A model generated the notes under the pieces. That model worked only from the letters and a program-made list of their open reading frames with translations. It was not told the origin of the DNA and ran no database searches. A DNA stretch of 64,000 nt from Aporhodopirellula aestuarii (GTDB taxonomy: Bacteria; Planctomycetota; Planctomycetia; Pirellulales; Pirellulaceae). The stretch spans positions 124,001 through 188,000 of the forward strand of contig NZ_JAMQBK010000024.1 of the NCBI RefSeq assembly GCF_023701485.1, written 5' to 3'. A program made the translations under genes and the position numbers. Of the stretch, positions 40,985 to 64,000 are shown one piece after another (within the stretch, counting starts at the first letter, position 1; every line of letters begins with the position of its first letter).

Positions 40985-41082
40985 GGCGTTCAGGTCCTAA
41001 TGAGCTATAATTGAGCAGTCAAAGTTTGCCTAACCGGGTAATTCCTATTGAACTCTTCGGCAAAATTTCCGATACAGTTCAT

Positions 41083-41099
41083 ATACCGGGCATGGGTAT
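41083..41099. promoter_or_regulatory. CsoR-like operator in the TolC/CusBA divergent region
   Basis: ATACC-GGGCATG-GGTAT (17 bp, arms ATACC/GGTAT) has the same geometry as the sites at 38630 and 55707. It ends 18 bp before the GTG at 41118. A TATAAT hexamer is seen upstream at 41006-41011. Confidence 0.5.
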
Positions 41100-41117
41100 C
41101 CTTTTCGGAAGGTCACA

Positions 41118-41672: not shown

Positions 41673-41817
41673 CGTCGTCTCGATAGGAGAGCTGCGCGCT
41701 CGTAGCTTCTCGTTTTCAAGTTGGCTTTCATGCGAATGATGCTGCGCGCTCGTTCCGTGTGAAGTCTATCCAGATGCAATCCCCACGCGATCCAATTCGC
41801 GTCACCAAAACAATGAG

Positions 41818-41910
41818 CCGGTCATAGCCTGGAGGCAATGACCGGTCGGCGATGTTGATTCACGAAGTGCCCCTCGTGACCAACCGCGTCGGCCGGTCGC
41901 CTCAGGGGCA
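41818..41910 (+). promoter_or_regulatory. Structured intercistronic region (possible attenuator)
   Basis: CCGGTCAT-A-GCC (41818-41829) pairs with GGC-A-ATGACCGG (41834-41845), forming a strong short-loop hairpin. Further on, TGCCCCT (41868-41874) pairs with AGGGGCA (41904-41910). Both lie in the 291-bp gap between the leader and the adaptor genes. No T-run follows. An mRNA-processing or attenuation role is inferred. Confidence 0.4.
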
Positions 41911-41963
41911 ATCGCCCGTGGATGGAAACATACTTTGTGCCGGAAAACGCCGCGAGAACTGTC

Positions 41964-44087: not shown

Positions 44088-44098
44088 GGAGACGAACC

Positions 44099-47614: not shown

Positions 47615-47729
47615 AACTTTTCGTTTGACCGTGAAGGAATTCACGACTCAGGCATCCAATCAACCAACCTCACCAAGATCGACGGACCCAACGGATGGAG
47701 TCCTGAAACTTTTACAACGGAGTTCTCCC

Positions 47730-49109
47730 ATGAAACGAACACTCATCATCACCGCTTTCTCACTCGCGATGTCCGCATCGAGCGTGTTTGGGCAGACGAT
47801 TCAATCGCAGCACAATCACGCTGGACACAACCACGTGATGCCCGGCATGACGCAGGCTCGCGAAGCGACGCAAGCAGGGCCGCATGGCGGCAGTTTGAAA
47901 CAATCCGGCAACCTGCAAATCGAAACGATTGTTTCACAAGGCGGGCTGAAAATGTTCGTCTACGACCGCGCTGGTCAGCCGGTTTCGGTTGACCGGGGAC
48001 GCGGTGCCGTTTCGGTACGAGTCGAAGGCAATGCGAAACGCTATCGCTACGACTTGTTGCCCGATGGCAAAGGAGCGTTGACGGCTCCTGTGAACTTGTC
48101 GCAAATCGCTGGTCGACAGATTGACGTCGATGTGCAATTGGTCGGTATTGCGGCCAGCACAATCTCTTTCAATGAAGTCGCCACCGTTCCGGCCAGCGAG
48201 CAACAACTGGCAGCCGCGGCGATCGCACGACAAAAAATCTGCCCCGTCAGCGGAAAGCCGCTCGGCAGCATGGGTGATCCTGTCTCCGTCGATGTCAACG
48301 GACAGAAGCTTTACGTTTGCTGTGCAGGCTGTGTGAACGCGGTCAAGTCGGACCCGGCTAAGTATGCCGCCGGTCGCCCGCAGATCACGGTCACCACCGC
48401 GACCCAATCCGATGCAGCAGCCATTGCCACCCAGAAGGTTTGTCCCGTGATGGATGAACCGCTCGGTGGTATGGGGACACCGATCAAGGTGATGGTTGGT
48501 GACAAGCCGATCTATCTGTGCTGCAAGGGATGCATCAAAAAGATTCAAGCCGAGCCAGCGAAGTATTTGGCGATGGTTTATGGCAACGGCACGCAAGCCA
48601 GTGCCCAGCCTGCTGCCACGACGACGGCAAAGATCACTGTCTCGACCTCAACCCAAGCCGACGCAGCGGCCATCGCGGCCCAGAAGACCTGTCCCGTCAT
48701 GGATGAACCTCTCGGTGGCATGGGTACGCCGATCAAGGTGATGGTTGGCGACAAACCGATCTACCTGTGCTGCAAAGGCTGCATCAAGAAGATTCAGGCA
48801 GAGCCAGCGAAGTATTTGGCAATAGTTCACGGCAGCGGTAATCAAGCGTCAGTTCCCGCAGGTACCGAACAGGTTCGTGAAGGCATTTTCAAGGTGGTTT
48901 CTGCCGATGCACCTTTCATTGCGGCCCAAAAGAAGTGTCCTGTGATGGACGAGCCGCTTGATGCGATGGGTGGACCGTACAAAGTCAATGCGGATGGCAA
49001 AGCAATCTACATCTGTTGCCCTGGATGCGCGAAGAAGATTGCGGCCGAGCCGCAAAAGTGGTTGGCTGTTCTGAAGTCTCAAGGAGTCGATGCTCCATTG
49101 ATTCGTTAA
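47730..49109 (+). CDS. Secreted protein with four tandem CPVM...CC-x-GC metal-binding domains
   Basis: A 459-residue exported protein. Signal peptide (about 1-22), a His patch (HNHAGHNHVMPGM), and a beta-domain beginning AGPHGGSLKQSG, like the lipoprotein at 29242, come first. Four tandem units of about 80 residues follow. Each runs CPV-[SM]-x-[KE]-PL-x2-MG ... Y-[VLI]-CC-x-GC-x3-[KV] ... EPAKYLA, four Cys per unit, resembling YHS/TRASH-type domains. Units two and three are nearly identical, 249 bp apart. GGAG 7 bp before the ATG at 47730 decides the start. It is a likely high-capacity copper buffer for the CusBA system. Confidence 0.85.
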   Translation: MKRTLIITAFSLAMSASSVFGQTIQSQHNHAGHNHVMPGMTQAREATQAGPHGGSLKQSGNLQIETIVSQGGLKMFVYDRAGQPVSVDRGRGAVSVRVEGNAKRYRYDLLPDGKGALTAPVNLSQIAGRQIDVDVQLVGIAASTISFNEVATVPASEQQLAAAAIARQKICPVSGKPLGSMGDPVSVDVNGQKLYVCCAGCVNAVKSDPAKYAAGRPQITVTTATQSDAAAIATQKVCPVMDEPLGGMGTPIKVMVGDKPIYLCCKGCIKKIQAEPAKYLAMVYGNGTQASAQPAATTTAKITVSTSTQADAAAIAAQKTCPVMDEPLGGMGTPIKVMVGDKPIYLCCKGCIKKIQAEPAKYLAIVHGSGNQASVPAGTEQVREGIFKVVSADAPFIAAQKKCPVMDEPLDAMGGPYKVNADGKAIYICCPGCAKKIAAEPQKWLAVLKSQGVDAPLIR

Positions 49110-49243
49110 CTAAGTCGGGAGCGAGAACTGCTCGCTTCCGATCTGACTCACGCGGGGGCGGTGTCGCGGCTGAATCACGCAAGTGATGACGTCACCACGC
49201 CGTCCCTGCCTTTTTGTTTTCAACTTACGACAAGGACGTCGTC

Positions 49244-49519
49244 ATGAAATCGCTATGGAAATATTGCGCAACCGCAGCGCTCGTTTTGCCCCTCTCGCTA
49301 TCCGCCGGATGCCATTCGCTGCCCTGGGTGGGCAATCGAAAAGACGAACCGGCAGTGACCGCTCAGCAGTACGCCGAGCAAGCTGCCGCCAACATTCAAT
49401 ACGACACGGCGATTGATTTCGACACTGACTACCAACCGCCCGCAGCAAATGCGTTCACAACCGGTCCCACTTCAGTTTCGCAGCGTCCCTCATCAGGCGG
49501 CGAAAGCTGTTGCCACTAA
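49244..49519 (+). CDS. Small lipoprotein
   Basis: A 91-residue predicted lipoprotein. The signal peptide MKSLWKYCATAALVLPLSLS leads to the lipobox LSAGC (Cys near residue 23). The mature part is hydrophilic (QQYAEQAAANIQYDTAIDFD) and ends GGESCCH, a possible metal-binding end. AAGGA lies 7 bp before the ATG at 49244. It lies 134 bp after the four-domain protein and may be the last gene of that operon. Family not recognised. Confidence 0.6.
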   Translation: MKSLWKYCATAALVLPLSLSAGCHSLPWVGNRKDEPAVTAQQYAEQAAANIQYDTAIDFDTDYQPPAANAFTTGPTSVSQRPSSGGESCCH

Positions 49520-49538
49520 CGCGGGAGCGCGCTCTACC

Positions 49539-50210
49539 ATGAAGTCTAACTCCACACGCTCGATACGTTGGTTGGCGTATCGAGTAGTACGGCGTTTTGC
49601 GATCGCGAACGTCAGTCACTTCTATCAGTCGCCGATCGACACGATGCCGCGAACGCCAACGCCGAGCGAATACGAAATCTGTTCGTGTTCATCCAAGCGT
49701 CTACGCGAACACACATCCGAACTGGACTACGTGATCCCAGAGAGGGACTTGGAAATGCTGGACGCCGGCGCAGCCAAATGCTTTGCAGCCTTTCAAGCCG
49801 AGTCACTCGCCGGGTTCGCTTGGGTCGCCTTTGGAAACATACCCGGTGAAATGAACCACGACGGCAAACCCGAAACTGGTCTGCCAATCCAACTTTCCGA
49901 CGATGCCGCTTTCGTATTCCAAGTCTTGGTGCTTCCTGCCTACCGAGGGCGACGACTGTACGCGGCGATCTTGAGCAGGATGGCCGACGAATTGCAACGC
50001 GCCGGCATCCGACACCTGGTGCTGACTACCGAAGGATCGAACCACAACGCCCTGCGAGCGGTCGAACGAATGCAATTCCAAAAAGTTGGTCAAGCATCTT
50101 TCTTTCGCATCGGACCACTCAGTCGAGCAACCTACCCGACGCTTTCAAAAGATGTTGGATTCACAATCGGACGATATCTCGGCGACGATACCGCAGCCCA
50201 TTCAAGTTAA
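49539..50210 (+). CDS. GNAT-family acetyltransferase
   Basis: A 223-residue protein. The C-terminal half has the GNAT acetyl-CoA-binding motif A (VFQVLVLPAYRGRRLYAAIL, about 127-146) and motif B (LRAVERMQFQKVG). The N-terminal 60 residues are not conserved in an obvious way. Substrate unknown. GGGAG lies 11 bp before the ATG. It starts 19 bp after the lipoprotein stop, so it may be cotranscribed, and it ends overlapping the convergent phosphatase gene by 9 bp. Confidence 0.8.
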   Translation: MKSNSTRSIRWLAYRVVRRFAIANVSHFYQSPIDTMPRTPTPSEYEICSCSSKRLREHTSELDYVIPERDLEMLDAGAAKCFAAFQAESLAGFAWVAFGNIPGEMNHDGKPETGLPIQLSDDAAFVFQVLVLPAYRGRRLYAAILSRMADELQRAGIRHLVLTTEGSNHNALRAVERMQFQKVGQASFFRIGPLSRATYPTLSKDVGFTIGRYLGDDTAAHSS

Positions 50211-51650
50211 CTGAGCCACCAACAGCGTGGTGTCATCGAACGCCTTGCGCCCCTTGCGGAAAGTTTCGATGGACGACTCAAACGCTTCAACCAGTTCCCG
50301 AGCGTTGCAGCGTTTGACCGTGTTCATCAACTGCTCAATTCGCTCGGTTCCGTACTGTTCTTCACTCGGGTCAAACGCTTCAGTCACTCCGTCGCTAACA
50401 AGGACTAAGCGGGCCGTATCGCCGAGCTGGATTGTTTCTTCGCTGTAGCGGGTATCCTCCTCGACGCCCAAGATCAGGTCGCCCACATTCAATCGCACCG
50501 GTGCTTCGCGTCCAATCTGCAAGAACGGAAATTCATGGCCTGCATTGGCGTAGGTCAGTCGTCTCCTATTCGGGTCAACGACCAGTAGCGTCATCGTCGC
50601 AAAGTGTCCCATCATCACGTATTCGCAGTATCGTTCGTTGACATCTGTCAGAATCTGGGCAGGGCTGGACGATTTCTTTGCCGCTTCCGACACAAACGCC
50701 TTCAACAACGTCGCCGCCATCGCGGCCGGCACGCCGTGTCCCGATACGTCCGCGACGCACAGTAGATATTGCCCATCGGACAATGGAATCACGTCGTAGT
50801 AGTCACCGCCAACATCGTCGGCCGGCTCGAACAACTCGGCGACGTCGATTCCAACCAATCCATTCACCGTCGGTCGTAAGTTCTGTTGAATTTGACGTGC
50901 CTTTTCCATGTGAACGCGATGGTCGCGCTGAGCGTGATCCAAAGCCTCGGTCATCGAATTGATTTGATCGGCGAGATAACTCAGTTCTCGACAGCTTCGC
51001 GTGCGTGCAATCACGCTCAGGTCGCCGGCGGCAACACTCCGCAGCGCCGAAACGAAACCTTGGATTGGTTTGGCGATCAATTGCCGTAATACCGCGCTGA
51101 CCACGAAGGCAGTAATCCCTCCCAGCAATAGGACTCCGAACATTTGGATCAACAACGAGCGGCGTGTTGCACCCACAACGGCTGAACGTTTCTCTGAAAT
51201 GTAGACCGTGCCCGCTGATCCAGTGAAAGACCCGACAACGAGCGCGCCGGTAGCGTTTGATCTGGCGAGGGTTGAATCAGCAGCCGACCGCATTGCCAGG
51301 AGCATTTCGTCGGAAGCATGCCCATGCGAGACAGCTTGGTACGGAAGCCCTCGCCAATCCGCAGCAATATGGTGACCGGGCGAATCGTCGGTATTCATTC
51401 GAGCGCAGACGTTGTCGACCAGATTTTGAATCGCCTCGCCGCCGTGAGGTTCAGCGACCAACAGCGATTCGTACATCGTTTTGGCTTCTTCGGTCAACGC
51501 GATCTGCTTCTCGTTCAAATGCCGATCCATCCGCACTCGGTAGTCAACGACAAGAAACAGAACGACGAACCCAAAGAGAATTGCATTGACGAGGACAAGC
51601 AGTTGCCGGCTGATCGGCAACTGATGCCATCGGTATTTGAACGCTTCCAT
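50202..51650 (-). CDS. Membrane SpoIIE/RsbU-type PP2C phosphatase with HAMP domain
   Basis: A 482-residue sensor phosphatase with the same plan as the 9049 product. Helix one (about 17-40) is followed by an extracytoplasmic region (41-165), helix two (about 172-193), HAMP (to about 245) and a C-terminal PP2C/SpoIIE domain. Acidic motifs are VGGDYYDVI, DVSGHGVPAAMAA, SDGVTEAFD and DDTTLLVAQ. It would act on an anti-sigma antagonist or a similar Ser-phosphoprotein, but no partner is encoded nearby. ATG at 51650 is preferred to GTG at 51653. Confidence 0.9.
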   Translation of the reverse strand: MEAFKYRWHQLPISRQLLVLVNAILFGFVVLFLVVDYRVRMDRHLNEKQIALTEEAKTMYESLLVAEPHGGEAIQNLVDNVCARMNTDDSPGHHIAADWRGLPYQAVSHGHASDEMLLAMRSAADSTLARSNATGALVVGSFTGSAGTVYISEKRSAVVGATRRSLLIQMFGVLLLGGITAFVVSAVLRQLIAKPIQGFVSALRSVAAGDLSVIARTRSCRELSYLADQINSMTEALDHAQRDHRVHMEKARQIQQNLRPTVNGLVGIDVAELFEPADDVGGDYYDVIPLSDGQYLLCVADVSGHGVPAAMAATLLKAFVSEAAKKSSSPAQILTDVNERYCEYVMMGHFATMTLLVVDPNRRRLTYANAGHEFPFLQIGREAPVRLNVGDLILGVEEDTRYSEETIQLGDTARLVLVSDGVTEAFDPSEEQYGTERIEQLMNTVKRCNARELVEAFESSIETFRKGRKAFDDTTLLVAQLT

Positions 51651-51731
51651 CACGGCAACCTAACAGAGAAAAGCCGGGCGAGTTTTTTAGGCTCGTCCGG
51701 CCGATATGGGATCGAACGGAATCAGACGCGA

Positions 51732-52142
51732 TTAGCTGAGTTCAGCCGATTTTGCTTCCGTTGCACTTGCCGATCCTTTTCCGCAGCAGTCCGCACCGAC
51801 GCTACAGCAGTACGCTCGCTTTGCACAACAGGTTGGTTTCCCTGTTGAACTGGCGATGTCGCTGGTTGCAGCTTTCGATTCAGCGTGCTTCCCACAGCAT
51901 CGTGCGTTTACCGAGCAGCAATAGGCACGCTTGGCACAACAGGTCGGTTGAGAAGTTGGGCCGGCCACTTCGACAGTGGTTGCTGTCGTTTCCGCTTGCT
52001 TGCCACAGCACGCCGCTTGGACGGTGCAGCAGTATGCATGCTTGGCACAACACGTCGGCCGAGCCGATGCGACGGTGTCAACATTGCCAGCGGGGACGAA
52101 GGAAACGGCGAACAGAACAGCAGAGAATACAGTCGCTAACAT
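51732..52142 (-). CDS. Secreted Cys-rich protein with three CCAK-x-AYCC repeats
   Basis: A 136-residue exported protein. The signal peptide (about 1-25) precedes three repeats of PTCCAK-[HR]-AYCC-[TS]-V-x-A-x-CCGK, each with six Cys in three CC pairs, joined by Ala/Thr/Ser linkers. Paired Cys suit Cu(I) thiolate clusters, metallothionein-like in principle. The start at 52142 has GGAG 9 bp upstream; the longer frame to 52283 overlaps the next gene. It is the last gene in the minus-strand run copA, csoR, 52259, this gene. Confidence 0.78.
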   Translation of the reverse strand: MLATVFSAVLFAVSFVPAGNVDTVASARPTCCAKHAYCCTVQAACCGKQAETTATTVEVAGPTSQPTCCAKRAYCCSVNARCCGKHAESKAATSDIASSTGKPTCCAKRAYCCSVGADCCGKGSASATEAKSAELS

Positions 52143-52258
52143 TTTGGAAACTCCAGGATTGATGGCGCGGCCGACATCGACATGCACCGATTGGGAAACA
52201 GAAACATCTTCGTTTTTTGAATTGGGTCTGGCTTCGCAGGTCGAAGCAGAGCCAACCG

Positions 52259-52639
52259 CTAAATCTGAAGACGAACGTGCCAATCAATCAGAGAGTTGGG
52301 ACGGACAAAAGAATCCGGCCGACCAAAGGCGACCGATTCGGTCTTCCAACTGATCCGCGAGAAGTCGCTGCGATCCAAGCCGCGAGGCGACGGATCGTCG
52401 CCAGAAGTTCGCGGCGGCAACCAGACTGTCGTCTCACACGAAGCCATTGCAGGGCATTCGTGCAAAGGATCACTGTCACAGCAGCCGTGCCCGACCGGCT
52501 GCGGCTGGCAGCACGCATGAGGGCAAGGCTTCGCGTCGTGTGATCCTGCCCGAGCGGCCGGCGAGGACGCCAACAGCACCGCGATTACTGCAAAAGCAGC
52601 AAACAATCGAGCGGCAGCGTTGGTGTGACGACGGTTCAT
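52259..52639 (-). CDS. Secreted Cys/His-containing protein of the copper cluster
   Basis: A 126-residue exported protein. The signal peptide is about 1-31 (ending PAARAGS). A Cys/His patch follows (CPHACCQP, GHGCCDSDPLHECPAMASC), with eight Cys between about residues 38 and 68. The C-terminal half lacks Cys and is Arg/Ser/Asp-rich with no known motif. The ATG at 52639 is used rather than the in-frame upstream Met. It lies between csoR and the CCAK-repeat gene, so a periplasmic copper-binding role is inferred. Confidence 0.65.
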   Translation of the reverse strand: MNRRHTNAAARLFAAFAVIAVLLASSPAARAGSHDAKPCPHACCQPQPVGHGCCDSDPLHECPAMASCETTVWLPPRTSGDDPSPRGLDRSDFSRISWKTESVAFGRPDSFVRPNSLIDWHVRLQI

Positions 52640-52739
52640 GGCGGACAGTTCCAAAAGCTTTCAAACGACTCCCACTGAGGGAATCTCTTCTTTGATGCTC
52701 TTTGGATGCACGGCCCCGACGTTTCTTCACGACTTTCTG

Positions 52740-52771
52740 AAAAAAGATGGGGAGTCTGGAAGGTGGGAGCC
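52740..52771 (+). repeat. Dispersed GATGGGGAGT repeat, copy 3
   Basis: AAAAAGATGGGGAGTCTGG and the following GTGGGAGCC match the copy at 32765 (first 15 bases identical). It lies in the gap between csoR and the next minus-strand gene. Confidence 0.6.
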
Positions 52772-52825
52772 TAAACAAGGATGCGTCGCTTCTTCACTGA
52801 CACCTCCGCCACGCCCAGCTTTCCC

Positions 52826-53104
52826 TCACTCGCCGTACTTCCGAAAGACTGTCATCAGCTCTTCGATCTTCTCGTCGCGGTCCTTGGCACTGCCACTCTT
52901 GATCGCCTCGCTGACGCAGGATCGGATGTGCTGCTCCAAGACGATTTGGCCGACTTTGTTAAGTGCTCCCGTCGCGGCGGACAACTGCATCAGGATATCC
53001 ACGCAGTATTCCTCATCCTCGATCATACGACCAACCGCTTCGACTTGTCCGATGACACGTCGAAGTCGGTTGTTGAGCTTCTTTTTCTCGTCGTCGGACA
53101 GCAT
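52826..53104 (-). CDS. csoR: CsoR-family Cu(I)-sensing repressor
   Basis: A 92-residue all-helical repressor of the CsoR/RcnR/FrmR family. The Cu(I)-ligand trio is intact: C34 in EYCVDIL, H59 and C63 in EQHIRSC, the C-H-C pattern that separates CsoR from RcnR and FrmR. The N-terminal LNNRLRRVIGQVEAVGRMIE is the conserved DNA-contact helix. Copper binding is expected to release it from operators. It follows copA by 119 bp. The ATG at 53104 is used; a TTG at 53137 would add 11 residues. Predicted targets are the sites at 38630, 41083 and 55707. Confidence 0.9.
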   Translation of the reverse strand: MLSDDEKKKLNNRLRRVIGQVEAVGRMIEDEEYCVDILMQLSAATGALNKVGQIVLEQHIRSCVSEAIKSGSAKDRDEKIEELMTVFRKYGE

Positions 53105-53223
53105 TCGTGGAGACTTTTGGATAGGCTGGCTTTTCAAGAAGCCAGATTTTAGCGTGATAGGTCGATCGTCGTTAGATGGGTATTGATCGGCTCCTATCGA
53201 GCGAAAGCCCGCTTTGTCACAGG

Positions 53224-55671
53224 CTAGGTGAGTTTAGCGGCACGCAATCTCAACGCATTCGCGATCACCGACACACTGCTGAAACTCATCGCTGCTGCTG
53301 CAATCATGGGACTGAGCAACACGCCGAAGATCGGATACAGCAACCCAGCTGCGACCGGAATTCCCAGGGTGTTGTAGATGAAAGCGAAAAACAAGTTCTG
53401 ACGAATGTTGCTCATCGTTTTGCGACTCAAGTTTGCCGCCGCAGCCACACCGCGAAGATCGCCACGGACGAGCGTGACACCAGCAGACTCAATCGCAACG
53501 CCCGTCCCCGTGCCCATGGCGATGCCAACGTTCGCTTCGGCAAGTGCAGGAGCGTCGTTGATTCCATCGCCACACATCGCAATTGTCTTGCCTTCCTTCT
53601 TCAGCTTGCGAACGAAATCATGCTTTTCCTCGGGCGAAACCCCAGCATGAAATTCGTCGATGCCCAGTTTCGCCGCGACGGCTTTCGCGGTCGGTTCGGC
53701 ATCGCCGGTCAACATCACCACTCTCAACCCCAGTTCATGCAACGTCTTTAGCGCCGCCGGAGTGCTTTGCTTGATCGGGTCAGTGATGGCGAGAATTGCT
53801 GCCAGCTTGTTGTCGATCGCCACGAACACAACCGTCGCACCTTCGGCCTGATGCGATCCCGCTTTGTCTCGCCCCGCATCGACGCCCTCGATGCCTTGTT
53901 CGTCCAACAAGTCAGCCTTGCCAATCAACACATCATGATCATCGACGCGAGCGTGAACGCCACCACCGGTGATACTGTTGAACTCACTCGCCTCCACTAG
54001 CTGCAACTCATCCGCCTTCGCTCGGCGAACGACCGCCTGAGCCAACGGATGCTCGCTCTGTGCTTCGACCGCCGCAGCCAACGTCAACACATCGTTCTCA
54101 TTCCAGTCAGCAAACGTCTCGACACCCGTCACTTCCGGTCGTCCCTGCGTCAGCGTGCCTGTCTTGTCGACGACAATCGTGTCAACCTTCTCCATGACTT
54201 CGAGGACTTCAGCATTCTTGATCAGCACGCCTTCCTTCGCTCCTCGGCCAACACCCACCATCACGGACATCGGCGTCGCCAGCCCCAACGCACACGGGCA
54301 AGCAATGATCAACACCGCAACGGCCGCTACGAACGCATGTGCAAGCTGCGGCTCCGGACCAAACACAGCCCAGCCGATGAACGCGAGAATCGAACAAACG
54401 ATCACCGCTGGCACAAAGTAACGCGCGACCACATCGACCAGTTTTTGAATCGGCGCGCGACTTCGCTGAGCCTCGGCAACCATTTGCACGATGCGGTTCA
54501 GAACCGTGTCACCGCCAACACCGACGGCTTCCATCACGAGCGCACCGGTCTGGTTCAACGTTCCGCCCGTGATTTCGTCACCTTCCACCTTCTTCACCGG
54601 CATCGGCTCGCCCGTCAACATCGACTCGTCGACGCTGCTCGACCCGCTGAGAACTTTCCCATCGACCGGAACTTTCTCGCCAGGACGTACTCGCAGCCGA
54701 TCACCCTTGTGGACTGAATCGAGCGAAACATCTTCCTCGCCATCGTCCGTGATTCGGTGTGCCGTATCGGGAGCAAGCTTCATGAGTTCACGAATCGCTC
54801 CGCCCGTCTGCTGTCGTGCTCGCAATTCCAATACCTGCCCGAGCAACACCAAGGTGATGATCACCGCCGCGGCTTCAAAATAGAGAGGTGGAACACCGTT
54901 CTCGAAGAAGGCTTCTGGGATCACACCGGGAAGCAACACGACGACCAAGCTAAAGAGATACGCCGCCAATGTTCCCACGGCGATCAACGAGAACATGTTC
55001 AAGTTCATCGTGCGAAACGACTTGGCTCCGCGAACCAGCAAGGGCCATCCGCACCAGAACACTACTGGCGTCGCCAGAGCCAACTGCAACCAACCAAACA
55101 CCGTCTGGCTCATCCAATCCGCGACCCGCAATCCGACCATCGGCCCCATCGCGATAACGAGCAATGGCACCGACAACGCAACGCCAACCCAAAAGCGACG
55201 TTTCATGTTGGCGTACTGCTTATCTTCACCCTCGTCATCCAACGAGACGACCTTCGGCTCCAAGTCCATCCCACAAATCGGGCAGTCGCCGGGGCCGACC
55301 TGCTCGATTTCAGGGTGCATAGGGCAGGTGTAGATCGCCGTCGGGTCTGCGGGCGCATCGCTCGCCTTGGTCGATGAGTGACCACTGCAGCACGAAGACG
55401 TGTCCGAGGTTTCCTCGATCTGTACCGCTGCGCCGCCACCGCAACAAGACGAACCGCTTGATGCCTCTTTCTGTGATCGCTTCGCCAGCACCCCCGCAGG
55501 ATCATCTTGGAACTTTTTCAAGCATCCGTCGCTGCAAAAAACGTAGTTCTTGCCACCGAACTCAGCCGATCGTGGACTATCCGCCGAAACGGTCATTCCA
55601 CAAACCGGGTCGATCTGCGTTGACGGATCGGCGACCGGCAAGGACGTCTCGTGTTTCTTATCGTGGTCCAT
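53224..55671 (-). CDS. copA: Copper-exporting P1B-ATPase (CopA-like) with YHS and HMBD N-terminus
   Basis: An 815-residue Cu-type P-type ATPase. Instead of HMA domains the N-terminus has a YHS/TRASH domain (DPVCGMTV ... [12 protein letters not shown], about 22-60), two Cys pairs (SSCCGGG, SSCCSGH) and a heavy-metal-binding domain ([20 protein letters not shown], about 114-133). The core has TGEP, CPC (458-460), DKTGT with D502, [14 protein letters not shown], and the Cu-class residues YN (FAFIYNTLG) and MSFSSVSV in the last helices. It is divergent from the Csp-like gene, with a CsoR-like operator close to its promoter. Confidence 0.93.
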
Positions 55672-56233: not shown

Positions 56234-56689
56234 TCACTCGTCGAGGATGCCTGGATAGCTCGGCCAATCGTCGCCCCAGTCTCCGGGATGAACGACGGGA
56301 TAATCGGGCATTCCGGGATAGGCTTCGCCAGGGTGGCCCGGCGGAAGATTGTCGGGCGCAGAGTAGCCGGGCGGAACGTGATAGGGATGATCCGGCGGCA
56401 GTCGCGGCCAGACGTGAATCGGCGGCGGTGACTCGATCACGACGGGTTCTTCAGGTGGCGGCGGCCAAGGGTAATCATCAGGCCACCAAGGCGGACGCGG
56501 GCCGGGATCGGGAGTGCCTGGCGGATAGTCGTCGGGCCACACTGGCGGAGGCGGCAACGGCGGCGGAGTGAGAATGATTGGACCGTCGTCGTCTTCTTCG
56601 GGATCGTAGGGCGGTTCGCTGCCGGGCGGATCAAACGGCGGGACAAAGGGATACGGCGGCATCTCGGGATAGCCGGAAGGATACGTCAT
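56234..56689 (-). CDS. Pro-rich low-complexity protein
   Basis: A 151-residue protein dominated by Pro, Asp, Tyr, Gly and Trp (for example PPPLPPPPVWPDDYPPG and PPWWPDDYPWPPPPEEP), with no signal peptide and no catalytic motif. Its ATG at 56689 overlaps the stop of the radical SAM gene (ATGA), so I use this start instead of the longer frame to 56758. As the last gene of the operon running from 63993 it may be a small structural or substrate protein. Unusual composition makes any family guess unsafe. Confidence 0.6.
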   Translation of the reverse strand: MTYPSGYPEMPPYPFVPPFDPPGSEPPYDPEEDDDGPIILTPPPLPPPPVWPDDYPPGTPDPGPRPPWWPDDYPWPPPPEEPVVIESPPPIHVWPRLPPDHPYHVPPGYSAPDNLPPGHPGEAYPGMPDYPVVHPGDWGDDWPSYPGILDE

Positions 56690-57495
56690 TGCAGGGCACT
56701 CCGTTGCAGAGGATTGGGATGGGAGAACGCGGTGCGTTTGCTGGGGCACAAGCCGCACTGCGGAATGGATTTGGTTTCGATGAAGGCTTGCAGTTCTTCA
56801 TCCGTGGCGTCTTGTGAACACGCTTGGTAGTCGCGGAAGATTTGCCACTGTGGCAAATCTTGCAGTCGCAGTTTGAATTCGAGCTTGGCGAAATAGGCCA
56901 ATGCGGGGCATTTCCAAAGTTTGCCTTCGTAAAGCTGCGTGCAGGTTTTCTGCATACAGACTTTGAATGCGGCGTCGGGCTGGGAGTTGAACGGCATTGG
57001 TTTGCCATTCGCCACCTTGTATTGACGCATCCAACCGCGGTGCGATTGTCGAATCTTGATGCGAATGCCGGGAAACTGTTCTCGCCAGCGCCAAACGAGG
57101 TGTTTCACTTCGCGTAATCGTTTGACGTATTCGTTGTGCGTTCCGTGCTGGCTGACTTCGAGTCGACAATTCGTATCGACGAGTACTTTTGGAAGTTCGG
57201 GATACCGATGTAGGAAGAATCCGTTGGTGACGAGCATCAAGTCGCTGTCCCAATGCTGCCTAGCAAGTTTAATGTGTCCCAGAATCGCTGGGTTCAGCAG
57301 TGGCTCGCCACCAAGCAACGCGAACCGAGCCGGCTTCAGACGATGCGACCATTTCTGGTAGTCGAAATCGGCTTGTTCGATCGTGGGCATCGCGCCGGGC
57401 AAATGATGGTCGCTGTAGTGGCTGCATTGCTGGCAAGACAGATTGCAACCGTGGGCCACGTGATACTCAAGTGCCGGCAAGTTGTGGCGTTGCAT
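56686..57495 (-). CDS. Radical SAM protein
   Basis: A 269-residue radical S-adenosylmethionine enzyme. The [4Fe-4S]-binding CxxxCxxC is HGCNLSCQQCSHYS (C17, C21, C24), followed by a GGEPLLN motif typical for SAM binding. The C-terminal part has further Cys (VCMQKTCTQLYEGKLWKCPA and QCGLCPS), which suggests a twitch/SPASM-like auxiliary cluster. AAGGAGG 7 bp before the ATG at 57495 fixes the start. Substrate unknown; peptide or sugar modification is possible given the glycosyltransferase neighbours. Confidence 0.88.
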   Translation of the reverse strand: MQRHNLPALEYHVAHGCNLSCQQCSHYSDHHLPGAMPTIEQADFDYQKWSHRLKPARFALLGGEPLLNPAILGHIKLARQHWDSDLMLVTNGFFLHRYPELPKVLVDTNCRLEVSQHGTHNEYVKRLREVKHLVWRWREQFPGIRIKIRQSHRGWMRQYKVANGKPMPFNSQPDAAFKVCMQKTCTQLYEGKLWKCPALAYFAKLEFKLRLQDLPQWQIFRDYQACSQDATDEELQAFIETKSIPQCGLCPSKRTAFSHPNPLQRSALQ

Positions 57496-58492
57496 TGGCG
57501 TCCTCCTTAACGCGAATTCGGAATCGTCGAGCGTTGACGCCAAGCTGCAACAGAAAGCGGGTTAGCACCAAATGTGACGAACCGGTCTCGGTGTGACTGA
57601 GCATTCGTCGATCCAATTGGTGTGGTTCGTCTGACCATTGGCCTGTGACAATCAAATCTGGATAGATGGCCAGCAGGTTCGCGGCGAGTTGTGGAGTGAA
57701 GATCGGCCCGATGTCATATTCAGCCGGTGGATCATTTCCCCATCGTTGAATCAGCTCTTGCGTTTCAGCATTGCCAGGAAATGGCATCTCCGGTGGATCC
57801 CGCCGTTGCCACCGACAGTCATCAATGTGAGCCTTTGATCGCCCAACAAAATGGTAGACGTAAGATTGCATGACCGGATTGATGGCCCAGGCGGGCGAAT
57901 AGACCATGCTGACGTTGAAATCGGGCGGCAAGAATTTGATGTAGCCCGGATGGTCATTAAACAGCTGATTGACGATCAACGACTCGTCGGTGGCCTGATC
58001 GCTGGCACCCCACGTCGGAATCAAATGCCGAATGATGCGAGCAAACATTGGCCCATACATTTCTGAGCCATACAGATAGAGTCCGCCATTGGGATGCAGC
58101 CAAGTCGGTGCCGGCCGCACACTGCATCGCTTCGCCCAAATCTCTTGTGCCCGCTGCTGCCAACCTCCATTGTCGATGCGATTACTGGCTGACTGACGCT
58201 CGGCAACCATTCCGAACTGCAGTGGCGTCAGCAAATCAAACGGCGAAGGGCAGTCCGATCGAATCAGCATGTCGTTGTCGAGTTGCAGCACGTGCGCCGG
58301 CCCGACCTTTGAATGCACGTGATCGCAGACAAACATCTTCTGCCAGAATGGATGCACCGGTTGAAGGTGCTCGTCAATCCAAAGCAACTCCGCATCCCAT
58401 CGTTTCGCGGCAGCCTCAAAGCTTTCACGCACGTTCTGCGATGCACGCCGTGGTGGCAAGTCGAGGACCGCGATCACTCGTTTCATTTCCAT
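57467..58492 (-). CDS. Glycosyltransferase-like protein with DxD motif
   Basis: A 341-residue protein without signal peptide. It opens MKRVIAVLDLP, and VLQLDNDMLIRSD (about 68-80) resembles the DxD nucleotide-sugar site of GT-A-fold enzymes. HPNGGLYLYGSEM (about 133-145) is like the substrate loop of GT8-type enzymes. The last 60 residues are less ordered. GGAG 8 bp before the ATG supports this start. It overlaps the upstream glycosyltransferase by 10 bp and the radical SAM gene by 29 bp. Donor and acceptor are unknown. Confidence 0.65.
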   Translation of the reverse strand: MEMKRVIAVLDLPPRRASQNVRESFEAAAKRWDAELLWIDEHLQPVHPFWQKMFVCDHVHSKVGPAHVLQLDNDMLIRSDCPSPFDLLTPLQFGMVAERQSASNRIDNGGWQQRAQEIWAKRCSVRPAPTWLHPNGGLYLYGSEMYGPMFARIIRHLIPTWGASDQATDESLIVNQLFNDHPGYIKFLPPDFNVSMVYSPAWAINPVMQSYVYHFVGRSKAHIDDCRWQRRDPPEMPFPGNAETQELIQRWGNDPPAEYDIGPIFTPQLAANLLAIYPDLIVTGQWSDEPHQLDRRMLSHTETGSSHLVLTRFLLQLGVNARRFRIRVKEDANATPQLAGT

Positions 58493-59196
58493 ATAACTTT
58501 CTCCAGTCCGTGTTTGTCCAAGCCAGCTTTTAGGAATTCCGGCCGCCGACGCTGATAGCCGGGTGGGTCAACGTGCTCATGTTTGAATGAGTGATTCAGA
58601 TCGACCGCGACGTTCATTCCGGCGATTCTTGCTCGCCAGAAGAAGTCCCAGTGCTCTTCGACTTTGAGCGTTTCGTCCCAGCGGATCGCTTGCAGGATGT
58701 CGCGATAGGCAACAAAGCAGTTGCCGACGTAATGGCACCAGCGAATCGAACGCCGCTGCCGGTAGCTTCCGAAGGCGATCCGCAGCGTTCTGCCATCGAC
58801 ACGCAACATGCGAGGACGTTCCTCGTTGTTGCTAAGCGCCGCAAGCAAATCGAGGTCGTGATGTTTGTTGAGCGTCCCGATCAACTCAGGAAGACGCGTT
58901 TGATTCGTCACGAGATGATCGTCATCGGCGAAGATGACGATCGGTGTGTCGCCAGAATCAAGCAGTCTGTTGCGACCAGCGGAGAGACCAATGTCGTACT
59001 CGGTCTCAATCAGTCGATCGACCATCGCGGCTTCGTCTGGACAAACGGCCGAGAATCGCAGTTCCGGTTTGCCGTCATCGAGGACGTGGATTAGCGGACG
59101 CTTGTCGCCATAGTGGTCGTGGATGCTGCGAACGAGTGCGGCACAGCAATTCGGGCGATGGATCGTCTTAATGCAGAAAGTGGCTTGATTACGCAC
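58483..59196 (-). CDS. GT2-like glycosyltransferase, copy B
   Basis: A 237-residue GT-A-fold protein. FCIKTIHRPNCCAALVRSI forms the first strand-helix unit, VLDDGKPELRFSA the second, and IVIFADDDHLVT carries the acidic DxD-like metal site. RWCHYVGNCFVA and LKVEEHWDFFWRA follow. I start it at GTG 59196 because AGGAGG is upstream, the TAA of copy A is overlapped (GTGCGTAA), and its conserved domain begins there; the open frame to 59307 runs into copy A. It is homologous to copy A at 59189, so the pair arose by duplication. Confidence 0.78.
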   Translation of the reverse strand: MRNQATFCIKTIHRPNCCAALVRSIHDHYGDKRPLIHVLDDGKPELRFSAVCPDEAAMVDRLIETEYDIGLSAGRNRLLDSGDTPIVIFADDDHLVTNQTRLPELIGTLNKHHDLDLLAALSNNEERPRMLRVDGRTLRIAFGSYRQRRSIRWCHYVGNCFVAYRDILQAIRWDETLKVEEHWDFFWRARIAGMNVAVDLNHSFKHEHVDPPGYQRRRPEFLKAGLDKHGLEKVIWK

Positions 59197-59953
59197 GGAC
59201 GATTTGACCTCCTGGATAACGCATCGAATGGAAACCGTGTTTACGAAGTCCCATCGCACGGAACTTCGATCGCCCACGCAGATCGCGGTATCCAGTGCCG
59301 GCAACATGGGCGTGGACGACGGAACAATCGGTCGCGACCGCGATTTGCAGATTGGCGAGGTGACTTGCGCGGTAGAAGAACTCCCAATGCTCGTAGGTTT
59401 TCAGGGCTTCGTCCCAGCGGAGTTTTGCGATCGTTTCCTTGCGAGCGAGGAATGCGTTGCTGACCATGTCGCACCAGGCAACAGTGCCAACACGTTTCTT
59501 TTCACCGCGATGCATCCAGATGCGTTTGCCGTTCATCAGCGGCGAAAGCATCGTCGGTCGACCGCCTCCTCCTTGCCGGACGGCGAGAATGTCGAGTTCG
59601 TGCGCCGTGAAGTACTCGCAAACGCGGTCGATGTGCAAATCCGCGGTGATAACGTGATCGTCGTCGAGCAGAAAGATGTGCTCGGTCTGCGCCGCGTCGA
59701 TCGCTGCGTTGCGTCCAACGCCAACGCCCACATCGTGCCGGTCTAGATTGATGACGGTGCAGTGCTTGGCGGACTCGGGATACTTCGCACTGAAGCGAAG
59801 TTCCGGCCGACCGTCGTCGACAACAACAATGGCTGGGTCGGCGATGTGTTCGCGCAGCGACTGGACCAACCGATGGCAGGACCACGGGCGGTGGATCGTC
59901 TTGATGCAGAACGTGATGTCTGCGGTTGAAATTCTTTTCGCCATGTCGCTCAC
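59189..59953 (-). CDS. GT2-like glycosyltransferase, copy A
   Basis: A 254-residue GT-A-fold glycosyltransferase-like protein. TFCIKTIHRPWSCHRLVQSL, VVDDGRPELRFSA, DVGVGVGRNAAID and IFLLDDDHVIT (nucleotide-sugar/metal site) are visible, then AWCDMVSNAFLA and LKTYEHWEFFYRA as the acceptor side. GTG at 59953 overlaps the stop of the GT25-sulfotransferase gene (GTGA); ATG at 59944 is an alternative. It is cytoplasmic by sequence. Confidence 0.82.
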   Translation of the reverse strand: MSDMAKRISTADITFCIKTIHRPWSCHRLVQSLREHIADPAIVVVDDGRPELRFSAKYPESAKHCTVINLDRHDVGVGVGRNAAIDAAQTEHIFLLDDDHVITADLHIDRVCEYFTAHELDILAVRQGGGGRPTMLSPLMNGKRIWMHRGEKKRVGTVAWCDMVSNAFLARKETIAKLRWDEALKTYEHWEFFYRASHLANLQIAVATDCSVVHAHVAGTGYRDLRGRSKFRAMGLRKHGFHSMRYPGGQIVRA

Positions 59954-61425
59954 CCAAACTTCCGGAGATCAGGATTGACGTGCTCAATCGCCGACTGGAT
60001 TTCATCCTGCGTCGGCGCGATGCCGAGAAACTCGACCAGATTTCCGATCACTTCCTCGGGATACGTCACCAACTCGGAGAACTCGATCCGGAACACCGGC
60101 ACATCGGGATGCTCGGCGATGAAGTTATCTCGGTGGTCGCGGAGACTGCGCTGCAGAACTTCGCACTCCTCGTCGTTTGCCGCGAACCATTGGCCACGAT
60201 GTTTCTCGCTACGGTTCTGCAGCGAGCGAATCGAGGCCTCGATGTCTCTTTCGACGGAGACGATTCGCAGTGAATCGCCCAACCCGGCGTGAAGGTGATT
60301 CACGAAGCGACACAGGTGCGGATACTTCGCTCCAGCGACCGTCTTGTCGCGGTTCGCTTCCGATTTGCGACTGATGATCCAGGACTTGAGCATCTGAGTC
60401 AGTTGGTCGTCGCTGACATTCGGGTCCGTCGCCGGGAAACGCATCACCTTTTCGCAAAGCTGTGCCAGACCGACTGCCTCGCCACCTCCGGTCGCTTCGT
60501 AGCCACCGAGTTGGTTACCCATGTGAACGCCCAGGTGATGCATCACCATTGCGACACACGACGTGCCGGCGCGGTGCGGGCCAAGCACTGCAAAGAACGG
60601 TGCGTCCGAATGGTCAGCGTTCTTGGCGTCATTGAAGAACCGAGTTTGACTCCACTTCCGTCCGCAGATGTTTGATTTGGTCGGTAGTTGTCCAACGAGC
60701 CAGCGATCGGGCGTGTAAACCGCGATGGATTCTTTTTGAATATTCTTGCCTTGCACGAGTGCTTGGTAGCGTCGCTGGATCAAACGACCGAGGTGGTGGT
60801 CGATGTGATGTTTGGTGTGCCAGTCGTTCCAAGTCAAATGGCGATAGAGTGTTTTCATCGCCTCGCGCCCTCGCACCATGAACGCGTGCGTGCGATTCAC
60901 GTTGTAAGGTCGGTAGACGTGTTCGCTGACCTTGTGCGGCGGGTTCTTGCCGGCGTAAAGGTGTTGGCCGCCGAGATACGCCATTCCCCAATCGGCCGGC
61001 AACTCGGCGATGAATTCCTGCAGCCGTTCGCAGAAGTCGTCGCCGAAACCGGCGTCGTCTTCAAAGACGACATACGAGTCGATGTGTTCGAGCAGGCACT
61101 TTTCGAGAATTAGCAAGTGTGATCGGTAGCACCCCCACGCTCCGTTCCCAGCCCGCCACTGCGGAGGCGTGGCCACGCGCCGGCCGTCGATCGCGGCAAA
61201 TCGTTCGGGTTCGGGGAAAGGCCACGGATCGGGAAGCTGCCGCATCCAGTCACGCAGCCGATCATCGCGTCGATCGAGGTTCATCAAGAAGCAACGTTCA
61301 ACGATCGAATTCGTCCTCCGGATCGTCTTGGTCTGGTTCGGGTGCCCCTTCGGGGAACTTTCGCTCGTACTTGCGGATGGCAGTGCTGACGAGACTGCGG
61401 GCGACTGTTGCGGTAAACCTTCCAT
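59950..61425 (-). CDS. Fusion of GT25-like glycosyltransferase and sulfotransferase domain
   Basis: A protein of about 491 residues with two enzyme-like halves. The N-terminal half resembles GT25 (LOS/procollagen galactosyltransferase-like) enzymes: CFLMNLDRRDDRLRDWM, AWGCYRSHLLILE and SYVVFEDDAGFGDDF. From about residue 275, FFAVLGPHRAGTSCVAMVMH looks like a PAPS-binding 5'-phosphosulfate loop, and ERDIEASIRSLQNR like the 3'-phosphate loop of sulfotransferases. The start is uncertain: ATG 61425 has GAGGAC upstream but overlaps the next gene by 128 bp, while ATG 61282 would remove the first strand. Confidence 0.75.
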   Translation of the reverse strand: MEGLPQQSPAVSSALPSASTSESSPKGHPNQTKTIRRTNSIVERCFLMNLDRRDDRLRDWMRQLPDPWPFPEPERFAAIDGRRVATPPQWRAGNGAWGCYRSHLLILEKCLLEHIDSYVVFEDDAGFGDDFCERLQEFIAELPADWGMAYLGGQHLYAGKNPPHKVSEHVYRPYNVNRTHAFMVRGREAMKTLYRHLTWNDWHTKHHIDHHLGRLIQRRYQALVQGKNIQKESIAVYTPDRWLVGQLPTKSNICGRKWSQTRFFNDAKNADHSDAPFFAVLGPHRAGTSCVAMVMHHLGVHMGNQLGGYEATGGGEAVGLAQLCEKVMRFPATDPNVSDDQLTQMLKSWIISRKSEANRDKTVAGAKYPHLCRFVNHLHAGLGDSLRIVSVERDIEASIRSLQNRSEKHRGQWFAANDEECEVLQRSLRDHRDNFIAEHPDVPVFRIEFSELVTYPEEVIGNLVEFLGIAPTQDEIQSAIEHVNPDLRKFG

Positions 61426-61870
61426 GCGGGAGTCCTCTTGCTTGGGCTTCTTCGAGTAACCAATCGACGATCGTGTCAATGTTTCGGCGGCAACCTTCGG
61501 CACCCCAGTCGTTCATCGTGTCGACACGGGTTTCGCAGTTGCACGTTTCGCTCGGCTTTGCAAACCAAGCGATCATCTTTTTGAGTTCGTTGCCGGGGCC
61601 GGGCCGGTAGCTGCTGATCTTCAGCGTCGCCGGCATCGGGTCTTCGTCCGGCATGTAGTTGCGAAGCAGTGCTTCCAACTCGGTGATGTCCTGTTTGCGT
61701 CGCTTCTTGTTGACCAATGCCATGCCGATCGTGACGATGTTGATCGCGCACGGGTTGTCGTTGGTCTGGCACGCGTTGCACGCGGTTGGCGTGGTTTGAA
61801 CGCGACAGCCGGCGAGTTGGCATGCCACTTCGCATTGGTTGTCGGGCGTTAGGTGTGGGCAATGCATCAT
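61298..61870 (-). CDS. Cys-rich hypothetical protein of the Ser-rich operon
   Basis: A 190-residue protein with no signal peptide. The N-terminal 45 residues contain nine Cys with His (MMHCPHLTPDNQCEVACQ, CNACQTNDNPC), possibly a metal- or Fe-S-binding module. The rest is helical, with two further Cys pairs (ETCNCE, EGCRR) and an acidic C-terminus (PEPDQDDPEDEFDR). It overlaps the Ser-rich gene by ATGA. I do not recognise the family; the strict overlap suggests a partner of the Ser-rich protein. Confidence 0.65.
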   Translation of the reverse strand: MMHCPHLTPDNQCEVACQLAGCRVQTTPTACNACQTNDNPCAINIVTIGMALVNKKRRKQDITELEALLRNYMPDEDPMPATLKISSYRPGPGNELKKMIAWFAKPSETCNCETRVDTMNDWGAEGCRRNIDTIVDWLLEEAQARGLPHGRFTATVARSLVSTAIRKYERKFPEGAPEPDQDDPEDEFDR

Positions 61871-63993
61871 GCTGTCATCCCCACGACTGCTCCATCGAAT
61901 GAACCAGACGAACTGGGAGGATCGCCAGGGTCTTCACAATCACTGCTCACTAACTCCCAGCCGCACGACCAAATCCATGTGCTGTTGCAAGGTTCACTCG
62001 ATCCGCTGCTGTCTTCGGAAGGTTCCTCGGTTGAATCGCTTTCGCTCGGCCGATCGGAGCCGTCGCTGCTATCGGATGCACTTTCGCTGGGGCGGTCGGA
62101 ACCGTCGCTTGGTGGTTCTGAGTTGGATGTCGAGTCGTTGCTTTCGGATGGTTGATCGCTGTCGCTACCCGATGAATCGCCGACGCTCGGATCGTCGCTT
62201 TCGCTGGGCCGATCACTGTCAGAACCTTCCGATCCCGAGTCGCTAGTCGACCGCGAGGTCGAATTGGAACCCGAACCACTTGATGAAACGGGTACGCTGG
62301 TAGAGTCATCACTTCGCGAATCACTGCCAGAATCCGATGTGCTCGTTGATCGTGAATCGGATCCCGATCCGCTGCCGCTATCTGATTCGGATGCACTTGT
62401 GCTGCCTGAATCTGATCCGCTTCCTGATGCAGAGCCACTTTGGCTCCCGCTGCCGGAGGCACTGTCCGAGTACGATTCCGAAGCACTCGCTGAGTAGCTT
62501 TGTGAGTCCGAACTGCGGTCGATGCTTGATTCGCTTTGGGAATCGCTGCCCGACTCGCTAGTTGATTGGGACGCCGATTCAGATTGCGACTGGGATTCTG
62601 ATTCGGACTCACTCGATATGGAATTGCTTTCGCTGCTTGCTGATGAATTCCAACTGTACGAAGGCACGCTCTCCGAGTCTGACTCGCTTCGTGATTCACT
62701 TTCGGATGTGCTCGATTCAGACTGGCTGGATTCAGATGTCGATGATTCGCTGGTTGATGATTCACTCTCGGACGCCGATGACTGCGAACTGCTGACGGAC
62801 GGACTGCTGGTTGATTCGCTTGATTGCGAGGTGGACGAATCGCTCGACGAACCGGAATCGCTTGATTGCGAGTTGCTCGACGACGAATTGCTCGCCGATG
62901 AACTGGATCCAGACACGCTTGGCAGACTGATCGACGTACTGGAATCACTCGATTCGCTTGTCGATGAGTCGCCGGACTGGGAATCGGACGAACTATCTGA
63001 CGATTCACTCGATGCGGACGACGACCCGTCGGAGCTTGATGAAACACTGATGCTGGGCAGACTGGTCGAGTCACTCGAGTCACTTGACTCGCTGTTGGAT
63101 GAATCGCTTGATTGAGAATTCGACGAACTGTTGGACGAACCGCTCGATGCCGACGAGGAACCGTCCGAGCTGGATGAACTGCTCAGGCTCGGCAAACTAG
63201 TCGATGTGCTCGAATCGCTGCTGTCCGACGAATCACTTGATTGACTACTGCTGTCGCTGCTTGATGAAGACGCTGAACTGTCGCTTGAATCGCTGCTGCT
63301 GGATGCGGACGAACTAAGGGAGGAATCGCTGCTGTCGGATGACGACGAGTCTGAGGATGATTGACTACTCGACGATGACTTTGATGACGACGACGAACTG
63401 CCGGAACTGCTGCTCGATGAGGGGCTGCTCGATGACGAACCACTGCTTGATGACGACGAAGACGACGGGCTGCCGGACGACGAGGAGGATGATCCGCTGC
63501 TCGACGAACTCGAACCTGATGAACTGCTGGAAGCCGACAGAGAACTGCTAGAGCTCGACGACATGCTCGATGAGCTTGAGCTGCTCATGCTCGAACTACT
63601 CGACGAGCCACTGCTGCTTGACGAGCTCCCCGATGACGAGGATGAAGATGACGAAGGCGACGACGATGAACTGTTGGATGAGGAATCGCTGCTAGAACTG
63701 CTGCTGGAGCCTGAACTCGAGGAACTGCTGGAGCTTGATGAACTGCTCGAACTACTGCTGCCATCACAGCAACGGCAACCGATGGTTAAATATGCCGATG
63801 TGTCTTCGTGGAAGTGGCAGACGATCTGTTGGCTGGCCAGCAATGCATAGTCGCAAACGTTGTAAACTGAGACAGCAGGGCCAATCGGTTTCCATCCGCC
63901 ATCAAAACGTAGCTCGCGAGCCGTTCCCCACGACTTTGCTTTGATGCGTTTCGCCGGCTTGCATAGCAGCGTTTGTTTCGGCGGGTCGATCAC
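61867..63993 (-). CDS. Giant Ser-rich low-complexity protein (mucin-like)
   Basis: A 708-residue protein. An ordered N-terminal domain of about 78 residues (YNVCDYALLASQQIVCHFHE, ending CRCCDG) is followed by about 580 residues that are mostly Ser, interrupted first by Gly, Pro and Asp and later by Glu, Gln, Asn, Asp and Arg. A short C-terminal Cys/Trp module (CNSTWIWSCGWELVSSDCED) closes it. There is no signal peptide or sortase motif. All Ser codon types are mixed, so it is not a simple DNA repeat. GTG at 63993 fits the GTGA overlaps of this operon, but the window edge is 7 bp away and the gene could extend further. Glycosyltransferases downstream suggest O-glycosylation of Ser. Confidence 0.7.
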   Translation of the reverse strand: MIDPPKQTLLCKPAKRIKAKSWGTARELRFDGGWKPIGPAVSVYNVCDYALLASQQIVCHFHEDTSAYLTIGCRCCDGSSSSSSSSSSSSSSSSGSSSSSSSDSSSNSSSSSPSSSSSSSSGSSSSSSGSSSSSSMSSSSSSSMSSSSSSSLSASSSSSGSSSSSSGSSSSSSGSPSSSSSSSSGSSSSSPSSSSSSGSSSSSSKSSSSSQSSSDSSSSDSSDSSLSSSASSSSDSSDSSASSSSSDSSSQSSDSSDSSDSSTSTSLPSLSSSSSSDGSSSASSGSSNSSSNSQSSDSSNSESSDSSDSTSLPSISVSSSSDGSSSASSESSDSSSDSQSGDSSTSESSDSSTSISLPSVSGSSSSASNSSSSNSQSSDSGSSSDSSTSQSSESTSSPSVSSSQSSASESESSTSESSTSESSQSESSTSESESRSESDSESVPSYSWNSSASSESNSISSESESESQSQSESASQSTSESGSDSQSESSIDRSSDSQSYSASASESYSDSASGSGSQSGSASGSGSDSGSTSASESDSGSGSGSDSRSTSTSDSGSDSRSDDSTSVPVSSSGSGSNSTSRSTSDSGSEGSDSDRPSESDDPSVGDSSGSDSDQPSESNDSTSNSEPPSDGSDRPSESASDSSDGSDRPSESDSTEEPSEDSSGSSEPCNSTWIWSCGWELVSSDCEDPGDPPSSSGSFDGAVVGMTA

Positions 63994-64000
63994 CCAAGAT

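Follow-up and report, generated by a model that had tools for sequence, protein, structure and literature searches.

In Gram-positive bacteria, the serine-rich repeat adhesins are long Ser-rich polypeptides encoded in one operon with their own glycosyltransferases (GTs). In phages, the virion glycosylation by phage enzymes that we found described is that of the mycobacteriophages Che8, Corndog, and Myrna, in which phage-encoded GTs modify the phage's own capsid and tail tube proteins (Freeman et al. 2023, as described in PMC12363180). Here we analysed a 64,000-nucleotide stretch of the planctomycete Aporhodopirellula aestuarii (contig NZ_JAMQBK010000024.1, positions 124,001 to 188,000; G000:C83:124001-188000 in our numbering), hereafter the window, in which eight minus-strand genes run from a Ser-rich protein through several GTs to a Pro-rich protein at the end of a prophage. 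The best reading of this cassette, to which we assign a probability of about 0.68, is a phage-encoded, mucin-like glycosylated virion appendage. As in the mycobacteriophages portrayed in that source, phage GTs are here predicted to act on the phage's own virion protein. Unlike in the mycobacteriophages, the presumed target is a Ser-tract extension encoded beside the tail genes, the GTs are of several families and are joined by a sulfotransferase, a radical SAM protein, and a Cys-rich protein, the phage belongs to another lineage, and the system is predicted from its genes. The cassette shares with the adhesins the union of a Ser-rich protein and its own GTs in one operon, but the Ser-rich protein has no signal or anchor segment and stands in a phage gene context; no SecA2/SecY2 or GtfA/GtfB partners were named among the cassette genes, no dedicated search having been made for them. 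The open-licence PMC literature yielded no paper joining serine-rich, phage tail, and planctomycete terms, and none for combined phage O-glycosylation terms.

Upstream of the cassette on the same strand lie the genes for a 263-residue protein, a 1072-residue tape measure protein (PF10145, 8.3e-47; phrog_28, 3.9e-80), a major tail protein (phrog_41, 4.7e-7), a neck protein (phrog_5, 2e-5), a capsid-protease fusion (PF25209, 3e-46), a portal protein (PF05136, 9.1e-58), and a terminase (PF20454), the family labels being profile matches here and throughout. Beyond the terminase follow a ParB-methylase fusion, a Prim-Pol primase, a helicase, and RusA, and then an IrrE-type peptidase and a helix-turn-helix regulator. 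Given these genes for virion structure, DNA packaging, and replication, with the portal, large terminase, capsid, major tail, and tape measure genes standing in order beside the cassette, the element is a siphovirus-like prophage integrated in the planctomycete chromosome. As part of the same best explanation, the prophage would measure ~42 kb, from 56234 to about 98158 in window numbering, with the cassette at the far end of its late structural operon. Nucleotide homology with genomes G011 and G023 stops near 98160 on the right side, with one further 460-base match in G023. A second, diverged copy of the prophage (copy B) lies 123 kb away on the same contig with 67-82% nucleotide identity in the aligned blocks; its cassette has additional GT11 and sulfotransferase genes and no match to the DxD protein described below, and a separate PF09956 cement protein is encoded near its capsid gene.

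The sequence-only reading had favoured a bacterial cell-surface or structural product and had named a prophage origin as the alternative; it is the alternative that was right, as phage genes follow beyond 64000. A bacterial mucin-like glycoprotein of the cell surface or matrix would account for a Ser-rich protein accompanied by GTs, and in genome G004 the cassette is present although no phage structural genes were recognised upstream of it in the stretch examined. Against it, the genes immediately upstream in the window copy are phage structural genes, an outcome that the sequence-only reading had itself listed as refuting its proposal, and relatives of the tape measure and 263-residue proteins lie upstream of the cassette in several other loci; the Ser-rich protein shows no hydrophobic signal or anchor segment (19-residue maximum 1.02, by simple hydropathy only); IMG/VR viral contigs carry the cassette; and the G004 locus looks like a prophage remnant. 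We rejected this explanation as very improbable on the phage context and the lack of signal segments.

The Ser-rich protein (61867 to 64782, of which the window holds 61867 to 64000; this and all following cassette genes are on the minus strand) is a predicted virion protein of 971 residues, assigned from its open reading frame (ORF), the N-domain model of a relative (L132), fold searches, and its relatives. It comprises a 341-residue N-terminal domain (N-domain), a CRCCDG junction, the Ser tract, and a short Cys/Trp C-terminus. Its real start is an ATG at 64782, outside the window, instead of 63993 as first proposed, and the tract earlier put at 580 residues does exist with a length of 593, 60% of them Ser, with Asp, Gly, Glu, and Thr as spacers. 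All six Ser codons are used, and because TCN and AGY codons are intermixed (71 class switches in 173 Ser-Ser pairs), the tract is not a simple DNA repeat, a candidate ruled out by the mixed codon classes together with the conservation of Ser. We compared the codons of the window tract with those of six near-identical copies (L051, L052, L053, L054, L136, and L135) in nucleotide alignments; L132, with counts equal to those of L053, was taken as the same prophage and left out. The ratios of synonymous to nonsynonymous changes at Ser codons were, in this order, 60:4, 76:2, 109:5, 81:6, 87:4, and 71:5, versus 32:42, 45:55, 51:48, 47:53, 46:55, and 43:42 at the other tract codons. Changes from spacer to Ser (23 of 295, versus 765 of 10262 possible single changes) were as frequent as by chance. 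The serines are retained while the spacers drift, which is the pattern expected if the serines are modified one by one. The earlier claim of a Ser-rich protein coupled to dedicated GTs is supported, and the serines are conserved individually. It is improbable that the tract bears another modification, such as phosphorylation or direct Ser sulfation, with the GTs acting elsewhere: sulfotransferases do recur beside the tract and Asp/Glu spacers are common, but the recurrent neighbours are GTs of several families and no protein kinase family appears among the matches listed (25 of 38 families in one scan). Directly before the tract (about 63760 in the window), a CC or CCC motif is seen in many relatives, even distant ones, though not in all, with the junction variants CRCCDG, GEGCCD, and TCCCD.

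The cassette recurs elsewhere, as a check of co-occurrence proposed for it now confirms: we collected 32 loci of the window type from planctomycete prophages and viral contigs (31 distinct, as L052 and L225 are 99.8% identical), defined by an N-domain with a Ser tract and at least 5.4 kb of downstream DNA and deduplicated by contig; some contigs end early, and the search profiles were built from part of these same loci. In the window, eight ORFs are present from 56234 up to the Ser-rich gene, tightly coupled to their neighbours as had been noticed; their frames, read from the first possible starts, overlap from the Ser-rich to the Pro-rich gene by 4, 206, 4, 119, 10, 77, and 73 nucleotides. 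Later ATG starts (61425, 57495, and 56689) would shorten three of these overlaps, so that the frames do overlap but some of the long overlaps (those with 61425 and 56689 as alternatives) are due to choosing the earliest start. Next to the Ser-rich gene, with the 4-nucleotide overlap, is a conserved Cys-rich protein of 190 residues (61298 to 61870), found in 32/32 loci. The GT25-sulfotransferase fusion (59950 to 61503; PF01755 1.3e-9, PF13469 2e-6, PF00685 2e-5) is likewise present in all 32; its ORF has 517 residues, and a start at ATG 61425 (491 residues) is possible, near the ORFs of 490-494 residues in several, not all, relatives. The two GT2 paralogues, a (59189 to 59953; PF00535 4.9e-11) and b (58483 to 59307; PF00535 1e-6), are represented by at least one GT2 in 32 loci. 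The DxD protein (57467 to 58492), an optional member found in 17, is a probable GT8-like GT; it has no Pfam match of its own, and a distant relative in L127 matches GT8 (PF01501, 6.7e-6). The radical SAM protein (56686 to 57543, first ATG 57495; PF04055 4.9e-9) occurs in 29 loci, and the Pro-rich protein that ends the cassette (56234 to 56758) in 27; a start at ATG 56689 would give the latter a 4-nucleotide overlap with the radical SAM gene. At E 0.1, Pfam gave no match for the Pro-rich, DxD, Cys-rich, and Ser-rich proteins.

The motifs of these enzymes, which we take to be catalytic, are preserved in the profile members: the EDD motif of GT25 in 20/20, the sulfotransferase GxxRxGTS in 20/20 and its second motif in 18/20, the GT2 motif [DE]DD[HQ] in 35/35, the DxD-type motif in 11/12, and the radical SAM CxxxCxxC in 19/19. 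The sequence-only reading was right in the ORFs and in the enzyme families, including the fusion, the GT2 pair, and the radical SAM protein, and needs correction in the Ser-rich start, in some long overlaps, and in the DxD protein, whose GT likeness comes through a distant relative and not from a Pfam match of its own; of its interpretation, the coupling of the Ser-rich protein to GTs, the co-occurrence, and the prophage alternative stand, while the cell-surface or structural product does not. The best solved chain for the radical SAM protein is 7wzv (3.5e-9 over residues 13-134), presumably the sugar decarboxylase BlsE, and all matches to NCBIfam radical SAM models were far below cut-off. A relative with 30% identity over 92% is encoded by Synechococcus phage S-SCSM2R (PQ898602) in a run of genes annotated as GT25, GT, aminotransferase-like, radical SAM, and GT2, so that a relative of this enzyme sits among phage GTs elsewhere too. 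That cluster differs from the present one in having no Ser-rich protein annotated in the 12.8 kb viewed, in its extra 2-oxoglutarate oxygenase and amidinotransferase genes, and in its 244-kb cyanophage genome.

A weak match of GT2 a to the TET-associated glycosyltransferase family PF20691 raises the idea that the enzymes glycosylate (hypermodify) phage DNA instead of protein, as does the ParB-methylase fusion of the phage. However, the PF20691 score is 22.4 bits against a cut-off of 27.5, versus 43.3 bits for PF00535; Tet_JBP has no match in the genome of A. aestuarii, but has none in control genomes either; and the sulfotransferase and the Ser tract have no evident place in such a scheme. We regard DNA as an extremely improbable target.

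In a search of 98 genomes (that of A. aestuarii included), the N-domain was found in 24, with 17 places at an identity of at least 72%, the Cys-rich protein in 16, and the GT25-sulfotransferase in 23; in IMG/VR, 9 loci matched the Cys-rich protein and 74 the N-domain. The 263-residue protein, whose fold search gave no usable match, has 193 relatives in named genomes, and the titles of the best 80 kept include Stieleria, Rhodopirellula, Rubripirellula, Pirellula, Roseiconus, and many Phycisphaerales bins; four such phage loci lie in Rhodopirellula rubra CECT 8075. Among 50,697 phage records, there was no match to the N-domain, the Cys-rich protein, or the 263-residue protein, one weak partial match to the GT25-sulfotransferase, and two to the radical SAM protein. 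The N-domain copy of G023, a genome of another genus, is 99% identical, which points to a recent spread between genera. Two loci, L224 and L228, have a relative of the 263-residue protein and no match to the N-domain, the Ser tract, or the cassette in 9 kb, and L067 retains no more of the N-domain than its first 63 residues, with no cassette. At L124 in G004 (G004:C1:6222000-6241500), a Ser-rich ORF and the cassette, at 91-97% identity, have no upstream match to the N-domain, 263-residue, or tape measure proteins.

Beyond the window type, we examined N-domain loci with usable downstream DNA and found a GT downstream in 22/23 distant loci with a Ser tract versus 0/12 without one (Fisher 1.6e-8, overstated like the other p values given below, as the loci are related to one another). 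L184 and L191 were counted as having the tract, which lies in another reading frame; L185, L188, and L191, with a tract, no GT, and at most 2.4 kb of downstream DNA, stand outside the 23, and loci with a tract and still less DNA were likewise unused. Among 76 downstream ORFs of 22 of the loci with a tract, GT2 was found in 12 loci, GT4 in 9, Mannosyl_trans3 in 6, and GT64 in 6, together with FkbM methyltransferase in 8, Sulfotransfer_4 in 3, and Sulfotransfer_3 in 1. In 21 of these 22, a GT either matched a profile or was linked by BLAST to a GT confirmed in that way; the exception is L079, which offers no more than a Stealth_CR2 match below threshold. The 37 ORFs from 14 loci (the 12 without a tract plus L184 and L191) held a single GT4 protein, in L184. 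As the GT families differ between lineages, the pairing of Ser tract and GTs appears to have arisen more than once or to have survived enzyme swaps.

These observations bear on the explanation that the GTs modify the host surface, for lysogenic conversion or superinfection exclusion, and that the Ser-rich protein is an unmodified neighbouring fibre. The phage-side GTs matched are indeed filed under moron/host-takeover in PHROGs, and extra genes (GT11 and the sulfotransferase in copy B) vary between copies. Against this, the overlaps couple the cassette to the gene that follows the tail genes, the presence of GTs tracks the Ser tract across loci, and the serines are conserved position by position. 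Moreover, a Gtr-type system has a membrane flippase and a membrane-bound GT, but the seven cassette proteins contain no membrane-like segment (highest 19-residue Kyte-Doolittle mean 1.34), which fits action in the cytosol on a phage protein. We consider a host-surface role unlikely.

The N-domain was modelled by AlphaFold2 from its relative L132, a viral contig whose N-domain is 98% identical to that of the window. The mean predicted local distance difference test (pLDDT) score was 72, with 17/21 ten-residue blocks at or above 80 in residues 51-260 and values below 50 in the stretch before the Ser tract. Against BFVD, the model gave 17 viral matches at E <= 1e-3, most of them uncharacterized and two bearing the names structural or virion structural; proteins named as Mtd N-terminal or tail fiber-like fell just short of that limit. 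The head-fibre base gp8.5 of phi29 is prominent in the Foldseek PDB list (probability 0.91), with T1 and FCWL1 capsid chains at up to 0.97. The gene described here differs in following the tape measure gene, and copy B has its own cement protein; the E-values of these chains are at least 0.04 and their template-modelling scores low. We propose that the N-domain may be a virion-anchoring base, in the tail if judged by synteny or in the head if judged by fold. In six Phycisphaerales loci (L255, L259, L267, L281, L235, and L241), an N-domain without a Ser tract is followed first by a methyltransferase (confirmed for L259), then by one more protein and by a Ser-rich protein in which a Hint-like domain, with Hint matches below cut-off, lies between two Ser-rich parts; may this be a self-processing virion protein?

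In the appendage that we propose, the Ser-rich protein would be held in the particle by its N-domain, at the tip of the tail or on some other surface, and its tract of 593 residues would stand out as a flexible brush. The products of the coupled genes would decorate this brush inside the infected cell, either ahead of assembly or while it proceeds. Short O-linked glycans could be put on the conserved serines by the GT25-sulfotransferase, the two GT2 enzymes, and, where present, the GT8-like enzyme; the sulfotransferase domain may add sulfate to these glycans, and the likely role of the radical SAM enzyme is to alter a sugar. The phage would thereby gain a charged, mucin-like coat, with which it would adsorb to the surface polymers of planctomycetes or evade them.

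Several points weigh against this proposal. Both the glycosylation of the Ser-rich protein and its presence in the virion are predictions from the genes, and Ser may be conserved for a different modification or for physical reasons. In the PDB search with the N-domain, no match was significant (best E 0.04), and the leaders of the list, phage capsid chains and the phi29 head-fibre base, are mixed with unrelated non-phage chains, so a position on the head rather than the tail is possible. In the association, counting the three loci with short DNA as misses gives 22/26 (6.7e-7), using only the 7 longer distinct loci without a tract gives 7.7e-5, and the loci without a tract often have less downstream DNA than those with one. 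L222, outside the 32, has the N-domain, Ser tract, Cys-rich protein, and GT25-sulfotransferase, but the DNA searched there gave no match to the GT2, DxD, or radical SAM proteins. GT25-sulfotransferase relatives at 35-48% identity (L116, L117, and L119-L122) lack a Ser-rich gene in the stretch fetched, and this enzyme therefore has other contexts as well. No integrase was recognised among the genes scanned, a subset of all genes.

Some further features accompany the prophage. Copy B has a putatively CheB-like reading frame of 1652 residues (G000:C83:78811-83769) between its portal and terminase genes, absent from the window copy. Beside the prophage, at window positions 38731-55671, lies a metal-efflux block (OEP, CusB-like, AcrB-like, a YHS/TRASH protein, and an E1-E2 ATPase) whose nucleotide identity to G011 and G023 is 85-96%, versus ~69-72% for the next matching DNA leftward; for this reason, the block may have travelled with the prophage. 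Downstream of the cassette, a small Lys-rich MAKKK protein is encoded in L005, L042, L124, and L270, and two further common genes follow in L005, L053, and L124; these shared genes perhaps mark a shared integration site.

More tentatively, and with the odds somewhat against it, we suggest that the temperate phages of planctomycetes carry a mucin: a Ser brush of ~100 to 690 residues with a glycosylation cassette swapped between lineages, here sulfated and radical-SAM-modified, that would mimic or bind the sulfated polysaccharides of their hosts. A broad set of planctomycete phages, each joining a Ser brush to its own set of GTs, would suggest that glycan coats are common among phages and evolve by enzyme swapping. 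It would also offer a way into how phages encounter the surfaces of planctomycetes, and possibly a sulfated glycoprotein of phage origin and a sugar chemistry new to radical SAM enzymes.

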